64,000 bases of DNA from Allobosea sp. (GTDB taxonomy: Bacteria > Pseudomonadota > Alphaproteobacteria > Rhizobiales > Beijerinckiaceae), in contig NZ_JAFKFX010000024.1 of NCBI RefSeq assembly GCF_017308075.1, forward strand, positions 62,001 to 126,000, read 5' to 3'. This document shows, one piece after another, positions 24,881-51,831 of this stretch; positions within the stretch are counted from its first letter, which is position 1; each line of letters begins with the position of its first letter. The notes beneath the pieces were generated by a model, which saw only the letters and a list, made by a program, of their open reading frames with translations, did not search any database and was not told the origin of the DNA. The position numbers were made by a program, and so were the translations under genes.

Positions 24881-24893
24881 ACGGAGCGTGGCG

Positions 24894-26192
24894 ATGAGCA
24901 CGGCCAGCGAGGCGGCGCCCGTCGCAGCGGTGCCCACCGGCACGAAGCCCTTCGCCGGCTTCGAATGGCTGCTCGCCGGCCGTTATCTGCGCACGCGCCG
25001 CCGCGAAGGCTTCGTCTCGGTGATCGCCGGCTTCTCGTTCCTTGGCATCCTGCTCGGCGTTGCCACGCTGATCATCGTGATGTCGGTGATGAACGGCTTC
25101 CGCAAGGAGCTGCTGGAGAAGATCGTCGGCGTCAACGGCCACATCTTCGCCACCCCGATCGACCGCCCGCTCGATGACTACGAGGCGGTGGCGCAGCGCC
25201 TGCGCAAGGTGCACGGCATCAAGTTCGCGATCCCGCTGGTCGAGGGGCAGGCGCTCGCCTCCTCGCAGGTCGGCAATGGCGGCGTGCTGGTGCGCGGCAT
25301 CTCGGAGGAGGACATCAAGTCGATCCCCTTCGTCGCCAACAACATCAAGCAGGGCACGCTCGACGGCTTCGGAACGGCTGGCGGCGTCGCCATCGGTCGG
25401 CGGCTTGCGGCCTCGCTCGGCCTGCAGGCCGGCGACACCATCACCATCGTCACCCCGCGCGGAGCCTCGACACCCTTCGGCACGGCGCCGCGGATCAAGG
25501 CCTACCCGGTCACGGCAGTGTTCGAGATCGGCATGTCGGAGTTCGACGCCTCCTTCGTCTTCATGCCGCTCGGCGAGAGCCAGGCCTATTTCAACCGTGA
25601 CGGCGACGTGAACGTCATCGAGATCTTCATCGACGATCCCGACCGGACTCAGGCGGTGCGCGATGCCATCGAGGCGGACGCTCCGCGCCCTCTGGTCCTG
25701 TCCGACTGGCGCCAGCGCAACCGGACCTTCTTCAACGCGCTCGAGGTCGAGCGCAATGTGATGTTCATCATCCTGACCCTGATCGTGCTGGTCGCGGCGC
25801 TGAACATCGTCTCCGGCCTGATCATGCTGGTGAAGGACAAGACCGAGGACATCGCGATCATGCGCACCATGGGGGCCTCGCGCGGCACGGTGCTCCGCGT
25901 TTTCCTGATCACCGGCGCGACGATCGGCGTGGTCGGGACCCTGGGCGGATTGCTGCTCGGCGTCGCCTTCGCCAACAACATCAAGTCGATCATGGGGGCC
26001 ATCAACTGGATCACCGGGGCCAATCTCTGGGATCCGACCGTGCGCTTCCTCAGCGACATCCCCTCGGTGATCGATTGGCGCGAAGTCGCCAGCGTCGTCG
26101 GGATGGCGCTCGTCCTGTCGCTGCTGGCGACGCTTTATCCGGCCTGGAAGGCGGCGCGGCTCGACCCCGTCCAGGCCCTGCGGATGGGCTAG
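24894..26192 (+). CDS. lolC: Lipoprotein-releasing ABC transporter permease (LolC/LolE family)
   Basis: 432 residues. One membrane segment near the N-terminus (about 45-70) is followed by a large periplasmic domain (about 70-280). Three C-terminal segments (about 285-310, 330-360, 395-420) follow, in the FtsX/MacB-type fold. With LolD it releases outer-membrane lipoproteins from the inner membrane to LolA. DKTEDIAIMRTMGAS is the coupling-helix region that contacts LolD. The ATG at 24894 is chosen because GGAG lies seven bases upstream; a GTG two codons earlier is too close to it. Only one LolC/E-type gene is present here, so the permease may be a homodimer. Confidence 0.93.
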   Translation: MSTASEAAPVAAVPTGTKPFAGFEWLLAGRYLRTRRREGFVSVIAGFSFLGILLGVATLIIVMSVMNGFRKELLEKIVGVNGHIFATPIDRPLDDYEAVAQRLRKVHGIKFAIPLVEGQALASSQVGNGGVLVRGISEEDIKSIPFVANNIKQGTLDGFGTAGGVAIGRRLAASLGLQAGDTITIVTPRGASTPFGTAPRIKAYPVTAVFEIGMSEFDASFVFMPLGESQAYFNRDGDVNVIEIFIDDPDRTQAVRDAIEADAPRPLVLSDWRQRNRTFFNALEVERNVMFIILTLIVLVAALNIVSGLIMLVKDKTEDIAIMRTMGASRGTVLRVFLITGATIGVVGTLGGLLLGVAFANNIKSIMGAINWITGANLWDPTVRFLSDIPSVIDWREVASVVGMALVLSLLATLYPAWKAARLDPVQALRMG

Positions 26193-26201
26193 GGGCAGGC
26201 C

Positions 26202-26891
26202 ATGGCAACCGAGACCCCTGCGCTCTTTCTGTCCCAGATCGAGCGCTTCTATCCGCAGAGCGACGGGCCGCTGGAAATCCTGCGCAAGGCCGATTTCGCG
26301 ATCTGGCCGGGCGAGCTCGTCGCGCTGGTCGCGCCGAGCGGTACCGGCAAGTCGACGCTGCTGCATGTCGCCGGCCTGCTGGAGAGCCCCGATGCCGGCG
26401 AGGTCTTCATTGGCGGCGTCGCGACCTCGCAGCTCGACGACAAGGGCTTGACCCGGCTGCGACGCACCGAGATCGGCTTCGTCTACCAGTTCCACCATCT
26501 CCTGCCCGAGTTCTCGGCGCTGGAGAACGTCGTGCTGCCGCAGCGCATTCGCGGCCTCGGCAAGCAGGAGGCTTCCGAGCGGGCGACCGAGCTCCTGACC
26601 TTCCTGGGCCTGGGGGACCGGCTCGACCATCTGCCGAGCGAATTGTCGGGCGGCGAGCAGCAGCGCGTCGCCATCGGCCGCGCCGTCGCCAATGCGCCGC
26701 GCGTGCTCCTGGCCGATGAGCCGACAGGCAATCTCGACCCGCACACCTCGCTGCACGTGTTCGGCACGCTGGTGGCGCTCGCGCGTGCTTCGGGCCTCGC
26801 GGCACTGATCGCGACCCATAATCTCGACCTCGCCTATCGCATGGACCGGCGCGTCACCATTCGCGACGGGCTGGTCGTGCCGCTCGACTAG
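26202..26891 (+). CDS. lolD: Lipoprotein-releasing ABC transporter ATP-binding protein LolD
   Basis: 229 residues. Walker [13 protein letters not shown] is at about 44-55, Q-loop [16 protein letters not shown] at about 95-110. The signature [15 protein letters not shown] and Walker [14 protein letters not shown] follow. It powers lipoprotein release together with LolC, nine bases upstream. The pattern FxALENVxLPxRI after the Q-loop is typical of the LolD/MacB subgroup. Confidence 0.95.
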
Positions 26892-26947: not shown

Positions 26948-27895
26948 TCAGGGCGATCGCGCTTTCCGGCGCGGCGCCACGACGATCAGGCCGGCGATGA
27001 CGATCACCGCGATGCCGGCCCAGGTCGCCGGCGCCGGAAAGTCGCCGAAGATGACAAGGCCCAGCGCCGTCGCTCCGACCAGTTCGAGATAGACCAGCGG
27101 CGACAGCGTCGAGACCTGGGCGAAGCGGAAGGCGCTGATCGTCATCAGATTGCTGGCGGCCGAGATCAGGCCCATGAGCAGGATGAGTATGATGCCCTCG
27201 CGGTCGGGCATGCTCCATTGGAAGATCACGAAGGGCGTCAGCATGGCGATGCCGAGCGCGAGCTGCAGCGTCAGGGTCGAGAGCGGCGAGGAGGCCTTCG
27301 CCGTGGCACGCGTCATCACGAGATAGCAGGCCATCAGCGCGCCCGAGGCCAGGGCGATCAGCGTGCCGCTGCTCGTCTCGGCGCCGGGGCGGACGACCAG
27401 GAGCGCGCCGCCAAAGCCGAGCCCGACGGCCGCCAGCCGGCGCCAGTCGAGTCGCTCGCGCAGGATCAGGGTCGCGAGCAGGGTGGCGACGATCGGGGCG
27501 ACGAAATAGGCACCGAGCGCATCGGCGAGCGGGACATGCGTGATCGCCATGTAATAAAGCGTCATGGCGCTGACGAGGAAGGCGGTCCGGATGATCTGCG
27601 GCAGGAGCTGCCCGGGCGCGATCAGCGGCTCCGGCGAACGCCATTGCGCGATGGCGACGACCGGAAGCAGGAAGCCGAGCGCGGCGACATAGCGAGCCCA
27701 GCTCAGGAAGGGTGCCGAATGCGCACCGCTGAGATATTTGGCGATCGCGTCGGAACTCGGGATGATCAGCATCGAGCCCGCCATCAGCGCAATGCCCAGT
27801 GCGGCGCTGCGTCGCTGATCGGAGCCGTTCGGCTGAGGGGCCTCGCCCGCCACCGCGGTGGCTGCGCGCGAGACCGATTTCTGATGCGTATCCAT
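26948..27895 (-). CDS. EamA/DMT-superfamily transporter
   Basis: 315 residues from the ATG at 27895 (MDTHQKSVSRAAT). Ten predicted membrane segments form two EamA halves (about 30-165 and 180-310), with the motif RERLDWRRLAAVGLGFGGALLV closing the first half. The family exports small metabolites; the substrate cannot be read. The frame stays open 28 codons further upstream but without a clear ribosome binding site there. It is a single gene convergent with lolD, and its upstream region borders the LexA-box promoter at 28045. Confidence 0.87.
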   Translation of the reverse strand: MDTHQKSVSRAATAVAGEAPQPNGSDQRRSAALGIALMAGSMLIIPSSDAIAKYLSGAHSAPFLSWARYVAALGFLLPVVAIAQWRSPEPLIAPGQLLPQIIRTAFLVSAMTLYYMAITHVPLADALGAYFVAPIVATLLATLILRERLDWRRLAAVGLGFGGALLVVRPGAETSSGTLIALASGALMACYLVMTRATAKASSPLSTLTLQLALGIAMLTPFVIFQWSMPDREGIILILLMGLISAASNLMTISAFRFAQVSTLSPLVYLELVGATALGLVIFGDFPAPATWAGIAVIVIAGLIVVAPRRKARSP

Positions 27896-28044
27896 AACCC
27901 GATCCCGAGCGCCGCCTTCGCTCCGATGAAGACGAGCGCCGCGCCGGGCTTGGCCCGGACTCGAACCAGACGCAAGCATCCGGAGCGGGTAAGTTTTTGT
28001 TAACCGCGGTCACTTGCCCAGCAGATGGAAATAACCCATCGGCA

Positions 28045-28087
28045 TTGACCAGAACAAAAAGTGAACTAATCTGAACATAGATCGAAC
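28045..28087 (+). promoter_or_regulatory. SOS promoter with two tandem LexA boxes (GAAC-N7-GAAC)
   Basis: A -35 TTGACC (28045-28050), a 16-base spacer and a -10 TAATCT (28067-28072) form a promoter. Box 1 (GAAC 28052-28055, N7, GAAC 28063-28066) fills the spacer. Box 2 (GAAC 28073-28076, N7, GAAC 28084-28087) covers the expected transcription start. GAAC-N7-GAAC, read GTTC-N7-GTTC on the other strand, is the known alphaproteobacterial LexA site, and the lexA promoter in this window has the same motif. The four half-sites are 11, 10 and 11 bases apart, all on one helix face. The ribosome binding site of the downstream 36-codon gene begins three bases after box 2. Confidence 0.82.
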
Positions 28088-28100
28088 ACAGGAGATCGAC

Positions 28101-28211
28101 ATGCTGATCGCTCGCAAGCTGATGGCCGGTGCCGCCGAATTCTTCGCCCTCGCGCTCTTCGTCGGAATGATCTGGGTCTGGGCTGCGCTGGCAGCTGGCC
28201 CGAGCGTTTGA
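28101..28211 (+). CDS. 36-residue SOS-controlled single-pass membrane protein (SidA-like candidate)
   Basis: The ATG is preceded by AGGAG with a six-base spacer, an ideal ribosome binding site, directly after two LexA boxes. The product begins MLIARKLMAG and has a basic N-terminus (Arg5, Lys6), then one membrane segment at about residues 12-32 (AEFFALALFVGMIWVWAALA) and a short tail GPSV. The layout predicts the N-terminus inside and a very short periplasmic end. Known SOS-induced small inner-membrane proteins include SidA of Caulobacter, a 29-residue division inhibitor acting on FtsW/FtsN, and TisB of E. coli, a toxin. The SidA role is a hypothesis from size, topology and regulation; I have not compared sequences. 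dnaE starts 133 bases downstream in the same direction. Confidence 0.8.
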   Translation: MLIARKLMAGAAEFFALALFVGMIWVWAALAAGPSV

Positions 28212-28344: not shown

Positions 28345-31300
28345 ATGAGCGACCGGAAGAACGATTCGCAGGTTGAGGACGAGGTCGGATTCGTCCACCT
28401 CCATGTCCATTCGAGCTATTCCCTGCTCGAAGGCGCGATCCAGGTCGGTGCGCTCGCCAAGCTCGCGGCCGGCGACGGTCAGCCGGCCATGGCCCTGACG
28501 GACACCAATAATCTGTTCGGCGCGCTGGAGTTCTCCGAGAAGCTCGCCGGCGTCGGCGTGCAGCCCATCGCCGGGGTGCAGCTCAGCGTCGATTTCGGCG
28601 ATGACGACACTGGCGGTCGCAAGCCGGTCCAGCCGGTGATCGGCCATCTCGTCCTGCTCGCCATGAACGAGGCCGGCTACGGCAATCTGATGAAGCTGGT
28701 GAGCCAGGCCTGCCTCGCCGCCGGCGCCGGGCAGCCGGTGGTGACCATCGCGCAGCTCGCCGAATCCGGGGAGAATCTGATCGCCTTGACGGGCGGTGCG
28801 GGCGGCCCGCTCGACCTTGCCTTGCGTGCCGGCCAGCAGGCGCAGGCGCAGGCGCGATTGCAGAGCCTGCAGGCGATCTTCGGCGACCGGCTCTATGTCG
28901 AGCTGCAGCGTCATGAACGCGAAGACGGTCCCTCGGTCGAGGCTGCGCTGCTCAGGCTCGCCTATGATGCCGACCTGCCGATCGTCGCCACCAACGAACC
29001 CTATTTCGGCAAGCCCGCCGATTTCGAGGCGCACGACGCCCTGCTGGCGGTGGCGGCCGGACGGCTGCTCTCCGACCATGAGCGCCGCCGCGTCACGCCC
29101 GAGCATTATTTCGCGACGCGTGCAGAGATGAAGCGCCGCTTCGCCGATCTTCCGGAGGCGCTGGCCGCGACGGTCGAGATCGCGCGGCGCTGCTCCTGGC
29201 GCGTCGGCACCCGCAAGCCGATCCTGCCGCGCTTTGGCGAGGAGGGCCGAGACGAAGCCGAGGAGCTCGAAGCGCAGGCTCGCGCCGGCCTTGCCGCCCG
29301 CCTGGCCAAGCACGGGCCGGCCGCGAACTTCACCGCCGAGGATTACGACAAGCGGCTCGATTTCGAGCTGTCGATCATCACCCGGATGAAGTTCCCGGGC
29401 TATTTCCTGATCGTGTCCGACTTCATAAAATGGGCCAAGGACCATGGCATTCCGGTCGGCCCCGGCCGTGGCTCGGGTGCCGGCTCGCTGGTCGCCTATG
29501 CACTGACCATCACCGACGTCGACCCGCTGCGCTTCGGCCTGCTGTTCGAGCGCTTCCTCAACCCCGATCGCGTCTCGATGCCGGACTTCGACATCGACTT
29601 CTGCCAGTACCGGCGCGAAGAGGTGATCGAATACGTCAAGCACCGCTATGGCGAGGAGCGCGTCGCCCAGATCATCACCTTCGGCACCTTGCAGGCGCGC
29701 GGCGTGCTGCGCGACGTCGGCCGCGTCCTGGAAATCCCCTATGGCCAGGTCGACAAGCTGACCAAGCTGGTGCCGCAGAACCCGGCCAAGCCGATCACGC
29801 TGCCAGAGGCCATCGCCGGCGAGCCGAAGCTGCAGGAGGCCGCGGCCGAGGAGCCGGTCGTCGGTCGTCTGCTCGAGATCGCGCAGAAGCTCGAGGGTCT
29901 GCACCGCCACGCCTCGACCCACGCCGCCGGCGTCGTCATCGGCGATCGGCCGCTGGAGCAGCTCGTCGCGCTCTCGGTCGATCCGCGGACCGGCATGCGC
30001 GTCACCCAGTTCAACATGAAATGGGTCGAGCAGGCCGGACTGGTGAAGTTCGACTTCCTCGGCCTGAAGACGCTGACGACGCTGACCATCGCCGTCCAGC
30101 TCATCGCCCAGCGCAATATCGCGGTCGATCTGGCGCAGCTGCCCTTCGATGACCCGCCCACCTACGCCATGCTGGCGCGCGGCGAGACCGTCGGCGTGTT
30201 CCAGGTGGAATCGGTCGGCATGCGCAAGGCGTTGGTCGAGATGAAGGCCGACCGGATCGAGGATCTGATCGCGCTGGTGGCGCTCTACCGCCCCGGCCCG
30301 ATGGACAACATCCCGACCTATTGCCGCCGGAAGCTCGGGCTGGAGGAGCCAACCTATCTCCACCCCGGCATGGAGCCCTACCTCTCCGAGACGCATGGCA
30401 TCATCGTCTATCAGGAGCAGGTGATGCAGGTGGCGCAGGCGCTCTCGGGCTACTCGCTCGGCGAGGCGGATTTGCTGCGCCGCGCCATGGGCAAGAAGAT
30501 CAAGGCGGAGATGGACGCCCAGCGCGACCGTTTTGTGAAGGGCGCCATCGACAACGGCATCAAGAAGGAAATCGCCTCGGAGATCTTCGACCTGCTGGCG
30601 AAGTTCGCCGATTACGGCTTCAACAAGAGCCATGCCGCGGCCTACGCGGTCGTCGCCTTCCAGACCGCCTATCTCAAGGCGAATTTCCCGGTCGAGTTCA
30701 TGGCGGCGTCGATGACGCTCGACATCGGCAATACCGACAAGCTCTCCGAATTTCGTCGCGAATCGGAGCGGCTCGGCATCAAGGTCGAGCGGCCCTCGAT
30801 CAACCGTTCCGGTGTCGATTTCGACGTGGCCGATGGTGCGATCCGCTACGCGCTCGGCGCGATCAAGGGCGTCGGGCGCGCCGCGGTGGAATCGATCGTC
30901 ACGGCGCGGGCCAAGCAAGGCCCTTTCCGTGACCTGGCCGATTTCGCCCGCCGGATCGATACCCGCCTGGTCAATCGCCGCACCATCGAGGCGCTGATCT
31001 GCGCCGGCACGCTCGACGAGATCGAGCCGGAGCGCGCCAAGGCGATGGTCGCGGTCGACGGCATGCTTGCGCTCTCGAACCGCGTTCGCGACGAGGCAGC
31101 GGCCGGACAGCTCGACATGCTCGGCAACGGCGGGAACGCGGAAGCCTTCCGCATTCCGCCCTTCGAGCCCTGGGCTCCCGCCGAGCGCCTGCAGCGCGAG
31201 CACGATGCTGTCGGCTTCTTTCTCTCCGGCCACCCGCTCGACGATTACGAGCATGTGCTGAAGCGGCTGCGGGTGCAGAGCTATGCCGACTTCGCCCGCG

Positions 31301-31815
31301 CCGTGCGCGCCAGCGGCACATCGATCGCCAAGGTCGCCGCCTCGGTAATCGACAAGTCGGAGCGGCGGACCAAGTCCGGCAACAAGATGGGCATCGTCCA
31401 GCTCTCCGATCCCACGGGCCAGTTCGAGGCGATCCTGTTCTCGGAAGGCTTACAGCGTTATCGCGACCTGCTCGAGCCCGGCGCGGCGCTGGTGATCAGG
31501 CTCTCGGCCGTGCTCGACGGCGAGGAGGTGCGCCCGCGCATCGAGGATGTCGAGCGGCTCGACGAACTCGCCTCGCGCCAGAAGCAGGATCTCTGCATCT
31601 TCCTGCGTGACGACAAGGCGCTCGGCTCGATCGCCGAGCGGATCAAGTCTCGCGGCGATGGCGCCCGCGCCGTCGGAAAGGTCTCGCTGGTGATGATCCT
31701 CGACGACGGCGCCCAGGAGGTCGAAGTCGAGCTGCCCGGCCGCTATCCGATCAACCAGCAGGTCGCGAATGCCGTCCGCGCCGCGCCAGGCGTGATCAAC
31801 GTCGAATTGCGCTGA
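28345..31815 (+). CDS. dnaE: DNA polymerase III alpha subunit
   Basis: 1156 residues, the replicative polymerase. The PHP domain at about 10-280 starts FVHLHVHSSYSLLEGA. The polymerase active site has GPGRGSGAGSLVAYAL at about 372-387 and the catalytic aspartates in MPDFDIDFCQ at about 412-421. The fingers region holds YRPGPMDNIPTYCRRK and GIIVYQEQVMQVAQ. KSHAAAYAVVAFQTAYLKA, a helix-hairpin-helix region and an OB-fold (about 985-1060) follow. It is the DnaE1 type, not the error-prone ImuC/DnaE2, since it keeps the long C-terminal region and the clamp-binding part. It lies 133 bases after the small LexA-controlled gene, so read-through from that promoter is possible. Confidence 0.96.
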   Translation: MSDRKNDSQVEDEVGFVHLHVHSSYSLLEGAIQVGALAKLAAGDGQPAMALTDTNNLFGALEFSEKLAGVGVQPIAGVQLSVDFGDDDTGGRKPVQPVIGHLVLLAMNEAGYGNLMKLVSQACLAAGAGQPVVTIAQLAESGENLIALTGGAGGPLDLALRAGQQAQAQARLQSLQAIFGDRLYVELQRHEREDGPSVEAALLRLAYDADLPIVATNEPYFGKPADFEAHDALLAVAAGRLLSDHERRRVTPEHYFATRAEMKRRFADLPEALAATVEIARRCSWRVGTRKPILPRFGEEGRDEAEELEAQARAGLAARLAKHGPAANFTAEDYDKRLDFELSIITRMKFPGYFLIVSDFIKWAKDHGIPVGPGRGSGAGSLVAYALTITDVDPLRFGLLFERFLNPDRVSMPDFDIDFCQYRREEVIEYVKHRYGEERVAQIITFGTLQARGVLRDVGRVLEIPYGQVDKLTKLVPQNPAKPITLPEAIAGEPKLQEAAAEEPVVGRLLEIAQKLEGLHRHASTHAAGVVIGDRPLEQLVALSVDPRTGMRVTQFNMKWVEQAGLVKFDFLGLKTLTTLTIAVQLIAQRNIAVDLAQLPFDDPPTYAMLARGETVGVFQVESVGMRKALVEMKADRIEDLIALVALYRPGPMDNIPTYCRRKLGLEEPTYLHPGMEPYLSETHGIIVYQEQVMQVAQALSGYSLGEADLLRRAMGKKIKAEMDAQRDRFVKGAIDNGIKKEIASEIFDLLAKFADYGFNKSHAAAYAVVAFQTAYLKANFPVEFMAASMTLDIGNTDKLSEFRRESERLGIKVERPSINRSGVDFDVADGAIRYALGAIKGVGRAAVESIVTARAKQGPFRDLADFARRIDTRLVNRRTIEALICAGTLDEIEPERAKAMVAVDGMLALSNRVRDEAAAGQLDMLGNGGNAEAFRIPPFEPWAPAERLQREHDAVGFFLSGHPLDDYEHVLKRLRVQSYADFARAVRASGTSIAKVAASVIDKSERRTKSGNKMGIVQLSDPTGQFEAILFSEGLQRYRDLLEPGAALVIRLSAVLDGEEVRPRIEDVERLDELASRQKQDLCIFLRDDKALGSIAERIKSRGDGARAVGKVSLVMILDDGAQEVEVELPGRYPINQQVANAVRAAPGVINVELR

Positions 31816-51022: not shown

Positions 51023-51051
51023 TTGCGGAACACATGGCGAACAGGTATGTT
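51023..51051 (+). promoter_or_regulatory. lexA promoter with LexA box
   Basis: TTGCGG (51023-51028), 17 bases, TATGTT (51046-51051) form a good sigma70-type promoter. The LexA box GAAC (51028-51031), N7, GAAC (51039-51042) fills the spacer, so bound LexA would block RNA polymerase: classical autoregulation. A further near-match, GTTC-N7-GTTT, is at 51052-51066. Start of transcription should be near 51058, about 42 bases before the lexA start codon. Confidence 0.85.
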
Positions 51052-51099: not shown

Positions 51100-51831
51100 A
51101 TGCTGACACGCAAACAGTTCGAACTGCTTCGCTTCATCCATGAACGCCTGCGCGAATCCGGCGTCCCGCCCTCCTTCGACGAGATGAAGGATGCGCTCGA
51201 CCTGCGCTCCAAATCCGGCATTCACCGGTTGATCATGGCGCTGGAGGAGCGCGGCTTCATTCGCCGGCTACCGAACCGCGCCCGGGCACTCGAAGTCATC
51301 AAGATGCCGGACGGAATCGGCGGTGCGCCGGGGCAGCGCGCCCGTTTCAGCCCGTCCATCGTGCAGGGCGGGCTCGGCCAGACTCCGCCTGCCCCAGCCG
51401 CCAACCTCGCCAAGCCGCGGCCCGCCACCGCCGAGGAGAACGGACGCACGACCGTTTCCATCCCGGTGATGGGCCGAATCGCCGCTGGCACGCCGATCTC
51501 GGCGATCCAGGATCGCAGCCACAGCGTCTCCATGCCGGCCGACATGCTCGGCGGCGGCGAGCACTACGCGCTGGAGGTCCGCGGCGATTCGATGATCGAG
51601 GCCGGCATTCTCGACGGTGACACCGTCGTCATCCGCAAGCAGGACACCGCCAACACCGGCGATATCATCGTCGCCCTGATCGATGACGAGGAGGCGACGC
51701 TGAAGCGCCTGCGCAAGCGCGGCTCCTCGATTGCCCTGGAGGCCGCCAACCCGGCCTACGAGACCCGCGTGCTCGGCCCGGACCGCGTCAAGATCCAGGG
51801 TCGGCTCGTCAATCTGATGCGGCGCTACTGA
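51100..51831 (+). CDS. lexA: SOS repressor LexA
   Basis: 243 residues from the ATG at 51100; the upstream in-frame ATG at 51034 lies inside the operator and promoter and is rejected. The winged helix-turn-helix (1-65) starts [20 protein letters not shown] and has [18 protein letters not shown] as recognition region, the alphaproteobacterial type that binds GAAC-N7-GAAC. A linker follows. The autocleavage site is Ala129-Gly130 (MGRIAAGTP), with the Ser164 (RGDSMIEAG) / Lys202 (EATLKRL) dyad of family S24. RecA filaments trigger cleavage after DNA damage. It controls at least its own promoter and the one at 28045. Confidence 0.96.

Follow-up and report, generated by a model that had tools for sequence, protein, structure and literature searches.

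The window analysed here (64,000 nucleotides of Allobosea sp., contig NZ_JAFKFX010000024.1, positions 62,001 to 126,000) encodes, directly upstream of dnaE and behind two LexA-type boxes, a micropeptide of 36 residues with one predicted membrane helix; our best explanation, drawn from sequence and from analogy with Caulobacter and given a probability of about 0.7, is that this micropeptide is a SidA-type SOS division inhibitor and, most likely, orthologous to SidA by position. The assignment is based on the slot before dnaE and downstream of lolD, which is the same in both lineages, on the operator, on the one-helix design and on a weak profile match. The literature that we searched, which did not cover the 2011 SidA paper, reports no SidA relative outside Caulobacter, so as far as that literature shows a SidA-type gene is probably new for this lineage. 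The more interesting result is the slot itself, that is, an operator and a micropeptide before dnaE across the order and in parts of the class; it bears on how most Alphaproteobacteria halt division upon DNA damage.

A micropeptide gene behind paired LexA-type boxes

The ORF at 28101–28211 (forward strand) runs from an ATG start to a TGA stop, encodes 36 residues and follows the ribosome binding site AGGAG (28090–28094, forward strand) with a six-base spacer. Among the 422 ATG-initiated ORFs of 25–60 residues in the window, it is the only one that combines a membrane-helix score of at least 2.0 with a strong ribosome site. AlphaFold predicts a single helix (residues 2–31; mean pLDDT 93.8), for which a membrane location is predicted; by a crude test (hydrophobic moment of 0.03 over the most hydrophobic 18-mer), this helix is evenly hydrophobic and not amphipathic.

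We searched for the micropeptide in 61 genomes (its own and 60 relatives), 37 of which belong to the same genus and 24 to other families. It is present before dnaE in all 37 genomes of the genus (E-values of 9.7e-4 or better); in the other families, 11 of the 24 genomes contain at best weak matches (E-values from 0.015 to 0.9), and three of the four such places that were read are located before dnaE (L039, L041 and L043). For 34 of the 37 genus sequences we calculated pN/pS: the value for the micropeptide's own frame is 0.35, against 1.38 and 1.90 for the two alternative frames; among 35 codons, the variable columns number 22, 16 and 32 at codon positions 1, 2 and 3, respectively. In an alignment of 20 genus sequences (hand-chosen, and not every distinct one), the invariant residues are R5, G10, E13, L17, F20, M23, W27, A28 and A29. 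This ORF is a genuine gene and encodes a one-helix micropeptide with a predicted inner-membrane location: it is found in every genus genome searched, is under purifying selection in its own frame only, and keeps both boxes in 31 of the 37 loci (vide infra); its conservation, the own-frame selection and its uniqueness among the 422 ORFs rule out a chance ORF. The micropeptide has no match among the Pfam and NCBIfam models, so a known family is also ruled out; tblastn searches with two peptides against plasmids and with one peptide against phages gave no match, and these origins were rejected. Two genus genomes contain second, weaker matches to the micropeptide (L034, G006:C11:157470-157568; L040, G035:C24:36449-36547); the stretch read at each contains no dnaE and no box was seen directly upstream, so these are perhaps paralogues or unrelated helices.

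The promoter region begins with a candidate −35 element, TTGACC (28046–28051, forward strand); TTGAC is found 2–4 nt ahead of the first GAAC in all 37 genus loci, and a generic sigma-70 scan found no promoter at the TTGACC site. Two exact matches to the LexA-type motif GAAC-N7-GAAC follow on the forward strand: box 1, GAACAAAAAGTGAAC (28052–28066), lies in the promoter spacer, and box 2, GAACATAGATCGAAC (28073–28087), lies 21 bp beyond it and would overlap the probable transcription start. Allowing one mismatch, 31 of the 37 genus loci have the pair, always with the 21-bp spacing, three have one box and three have none; counting exact boxes only, 12 loci have two and 25 have at least one. A 38th member of the genus (L143) contains the ORF and no exact box. 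Over the whole window, the three exact matches to the motif (1.2 expected) are at chance level, with 13 of 100 shuffles reaching three; when positions 28001–28100 are shuffled, at least one box is obtained in 167 of 20,000 trials and at least two in 2 of 20,000. The occurrence of two boxes in the 100 bp upstream of the ORF therefore exceeds chance, and the local shuffles together with conservation in the genus and the controls for the order and the class (below) rule out chance boxes at this locus.

The one further exact box in the window, GAACACATGGCGAAC (51028–51042, forward strand), ends 57 bp before the start codon of the lexA repressor gene (51100–51831, forward strand; TIGR00498, over the cut-off). 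Genome-wide, the motif has 122 matches and the reversed motif has 70, so many single matches are noise. We inspected 15 places in the genome chosen for A/T-rich boxes; in four of these the box precedes ssb, rmuC, an imuA-like gene (E 6.7e-9, below the family cut-off) and the gene for a ligase-associated DNA-damage helicase, with the orientation of the box reversed relative to the gene at rmuC and the helicase gene. In other bacteria, ssb, imuA and rmuC belong to the SOS response. The occurrence of the motif before these genes and before lexA makes LexA the likely user of GAAC-N7-GAAC in this genome. Two pairs of boxes in opposite orientation, 16–17 bp apart, are located elsewhere in the genome (L262, G000:C40:163665-163696; L266, G000:C35:30183-30213) and are possible unlisted LexA targets. 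A further box, GAACAAAATAAGAAC, which may be there by chance, lies approximately 300 bp from the start of a Cas9 gene (L255, G000:C28, 2–1204, reverse strand; TIGR01865, E 2.6e-70, over the cut-off). The initial annotation had described a very short gene with an AGGAG site and a six-base spacer, one membrane helix in its product, and a promoter with two LexA-type boxes of the kind also found at lexA; each of these features holds, the helix as a prediction, and the ORF and its box pair are kept in close relatives as described above.

The next gene downstream, dnaE (28345–31815, forward strand; the alpha subunit of the replicative DNA polymerase III, identified with Pfam and with NF004226 over the cut-off), starts 133 bp after the micropeptide ORF. 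The conserved upstream neighbors, recognized also by synteny, are genes for a lolC/E-type lipoprotein-release permease (24888–26192, forward strand; TIGR02212, over the cut-off) and a lolD-like ATPase (26202–26891, forward strand; TIGR02211 is the best match, with 234 of 308 bits and thus under the cut-off). Between lolD and the micropeptide gene lies an EamA transporter gene on the reverse strand (26948–27979); it occupies the corresponding position in 7 of the 37 genus loci, which suggests that it was inserted later, in a single branch. Within the stretches examined, LolD is encoded at 30 of the 37 genus loci, at 25 of 30 Caulobacteraceae loci and at one of the five loci from named Caulobacter genomes.

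The slot before dnaE in the order, the class and Caulobacter

The micropeptide is missed by homology searches because it is very short and variable in sequence and has no Pfam or NCBIfam model; however, its slot makes it recognizable, since a LexA box before dnaE provides ready candidates across the order. We identified dnaE with a protein search and examined the preceding 450 bp, without using the peptide as a query, and a script recorded one-helix ORFs of 25–60 codons within 120 bp of an exact box. In the order outside the genus, 46 of 67 upstream regions contain an exact box, in 45 cases with such an ORF; as controls, the reversed motif gave no boxes, and the antisense strand gave 10 boxes and no ORFs. 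In the class sample, an exact box is found in 16 of 88 regions and a box with the ORF in 15 (controls: no boxes with the reversed motif; six boxes and no ORFs on the antisense strand). The two boxed loci that the script left without an ORF, L057 and L195, also encode the peptide, so the counts become 46 of 46 and 16 of 16. Neither sample is random: the order set consists of 27 of 30 loci and 40 hand-picked from among the matches listed of 296 (left out were our own genome, one genome of the same genus and L054, which is counted in the class set), and the class set combines the 30 best DnaE matches, minus the one from our own genome, with 60 loci hand-picked, mostly one per family, from among the matches listed of 383, less L110, which was too short. 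The class set includes five loci from our own order; 12 of its 16 boxed loci are outside that order, in nine families. In the remaining 72 of the 88 class regions no exact box was found, that is, the feature is either absent or unrecognised there. The box with the micropeptide slot is thus common in the order and scattered in the class.

The ORFs from the order (n = 45) have a median length of 32 residues, a median start 35 bp past the box, and a distance to dnaE that ranges from 17 to 295 bp. Similar one-helix ORFs precede dnaE at L196 and L201 without an exact box, which means that counts based on exact boxes underestimate the family. At five loci (L055, L161, L164, L169 and L205), an additional, oppositely oriented box is found 18 bp past the sense box; pairing at the micropeptide promoter therefore recurs, with a geometry unlike the direct 21-bp pair of the window.

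Whether Caulobacter sidA has the same neighbor had been raised in the initial annotation, and the named Caulobacter genomes agree with it: in all five, a LexA box and a 29-residue one-helix ORF lie directly before dnaE, with the ORF ending 29–47 bp from it. A search of the family Caulobacteraceae with the 29-residue peptide gave matches in 75 of 119 genomes; in the best 30 of the 75, the ORF has 29 residues (30 in one), dnaE is 1–43 bp further on, and the box is exact in 21 and has one mismatch in nine (labels L180 and L225 denote the same place). We take sidA of C. crescentus to be locus CC_1927. In published work, SidA is described as an inner-membrane protein of 29 residues that is induced in the SOS response and acts on FtsW (PMC4211646), sidA is listed as CCNA_02004 (PMC10769358), and C. 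crescentus dnaE is listed as CC1926 (PMC1839093). With this length, the LexA box and the adjacent locus numbers, the 29-residue ORF before dnaE is taken to be SidA, by length, operator and slot rather than by sequence.

Profile comparisons connect the peptides stepwise. The genus profile matches the order profile (E 2.7e-11; none of 200 column shuffles reaches the score), and the order profile matches the Caulobacteraceae profile (E 9.8e-5, probability 58%; reached by none of 200 full shuffles and three of 200 core shuffles). The order alignment consists of 33 of the 45 ORFs plus L055 and L072; it omits 10 near-identical ORFs as well as L205 and L217, the two that diverge most. A pooled profile from order, part of genus and class peptides (54 rows, one double, Caulobacteraceae excluded) matches that of Caulobacteraceae without gaps over 25 columns (E 2e-6, probability 89.5%), and none of 150 shuffles in either control reaches this match. 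Compared directly, the genus and Caulobacteraceae profiles match no better than by chance, since a score at least as high is obtained in 24 and in 37 of 200 shuffles; in whole-genome scans, the order profile found the slot ORF in none of five Caulobacter genomes and the Caulobacteraceae profile found it in none of 25 genomes. W27 and the C-terminal part of the micropeptide are not common to the Caulobacter peptide. The case for orthology is carried by slot and operator, with a sequence match that is weak but supported.

Proposed function and alternatives

By analogy with SidA, we propose that LexA would occupy the two boxes, which are 21 bp or two helical turns apart and fill the promoter, and so shut it off tightly; upon DNA damage, RecA-driven cleavage of LexA would release expression of the micropeptide, which would enter the inner membrane with its basic N-terminus inside. 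As in Caulobacter, the helix may then bind to FtsW, the synthase of the septal wall, and perhaps to FtsN as well, so that the FtsW-FtsI-FtsN complex, or late divisome, would be held inactive until the damage is repaired.

Because dnaE is always the next gene in the genus loci, the boxes could instead serve dnaE, with the ORF as a leader that tunes dnaE expression and a peptide that itself does little. The absence of a terminator-like site between ORF and dnaE in the window is compatible with this explanation, as is the gap of 1–43 bp in the 30 Caulobacteraceae loci, which is too short for a separate dnaE promoter. However, the helix is conserved at the level of amino acids, with invariant E, F, M and W residues, and the one-helix design is kept across families even though the distance to dnaE in the order varies over the range given above; moreover, co-transcription with dnaE and a function of the peptide are compatible, so we regard the leader as improbable. 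We assign a similarly low likelihood to an SOS micropeptide with another target, for example a different membrane protein, that has its slot and operator in common with SidA by descent; the chance-level match between genus and Caulobacteraceae and the absence of W27 and the C-terminal part from the Caulobacter peptide would fit such a protein, but the common slot and operator and the match of the pooled profile favor SidA-type function. Least likely is a TisB-like membrane toxin, which would reduce membrane energy and growth instead of targeting the divisome: the micropeptide is small, SOS-boxed and has one helix, but that helix is not amphipathic, and the gene has a fixed single chromosomal slot in common with the SidA-like Caulobacter ORF.

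If the SidA-type assignment is correct, the question arises why a division brake remains linked to the gene for the replicative polymerase. More tentatively, and with the odds somewhat against it, the SidA-type checkpoint could be an old alphaproteobacterial feature rather than one peculiar to Caulobacter, held in the lolD-dnaE slot through much of the class, with a promoter that may also feed Pol III; one operator would then couple the brake to the supply of the polymerase during damage.

Comparison with known systems

TisB of E. coli is a short, SOS-induced, amphipathic and depolarising membrane peptide under antisense RNA control; the window peptide resembles it as a short membrane peptide with SOS-type control. 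The initial annotation had named both SidA and TisB as analogues, and SidA is the better fit because the window helix is evenly hydrophobic, whereas TisB is amphipathic. SulA of E. coli is a soluble inhibitor of FtsZ; the likeness is at the level of function alone, that is, SOS-induced inhibition of division, which for the window peptide is predicted. SulA (PF03846) has no match in the micropeptide and none in its own genome, which rules out identity with SulA and leaves the role of SOS division inhibitor open for the micropeptide. DidA of Caulobacter is reported to be a small one-helix division inhibitor of 71 residues that is induced by damage independently of SOS and binds FtsN (PMC4211646); the window peptide is likewise small with one helix but differs in length and in having a LexA-type operator. 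Compared with SidA, an FtsW inhibitor that also contacts FtsN, the window peptide has 36 rather than 29 residues, a tryptophan-rich C-terminal half and a GP tail; its boxes are paired, 21 bp apart, and dnaE is 133 bp away rather than the 29–47 bp of the named Caulobacter genomes. The two have in common a very short one-helix membrane protein with a basic N-terminus, a LexA-type box, the slot before dnaE and, in the gapless profile alignment, the register of an S/A-x-x-x-F-x-x-M core.
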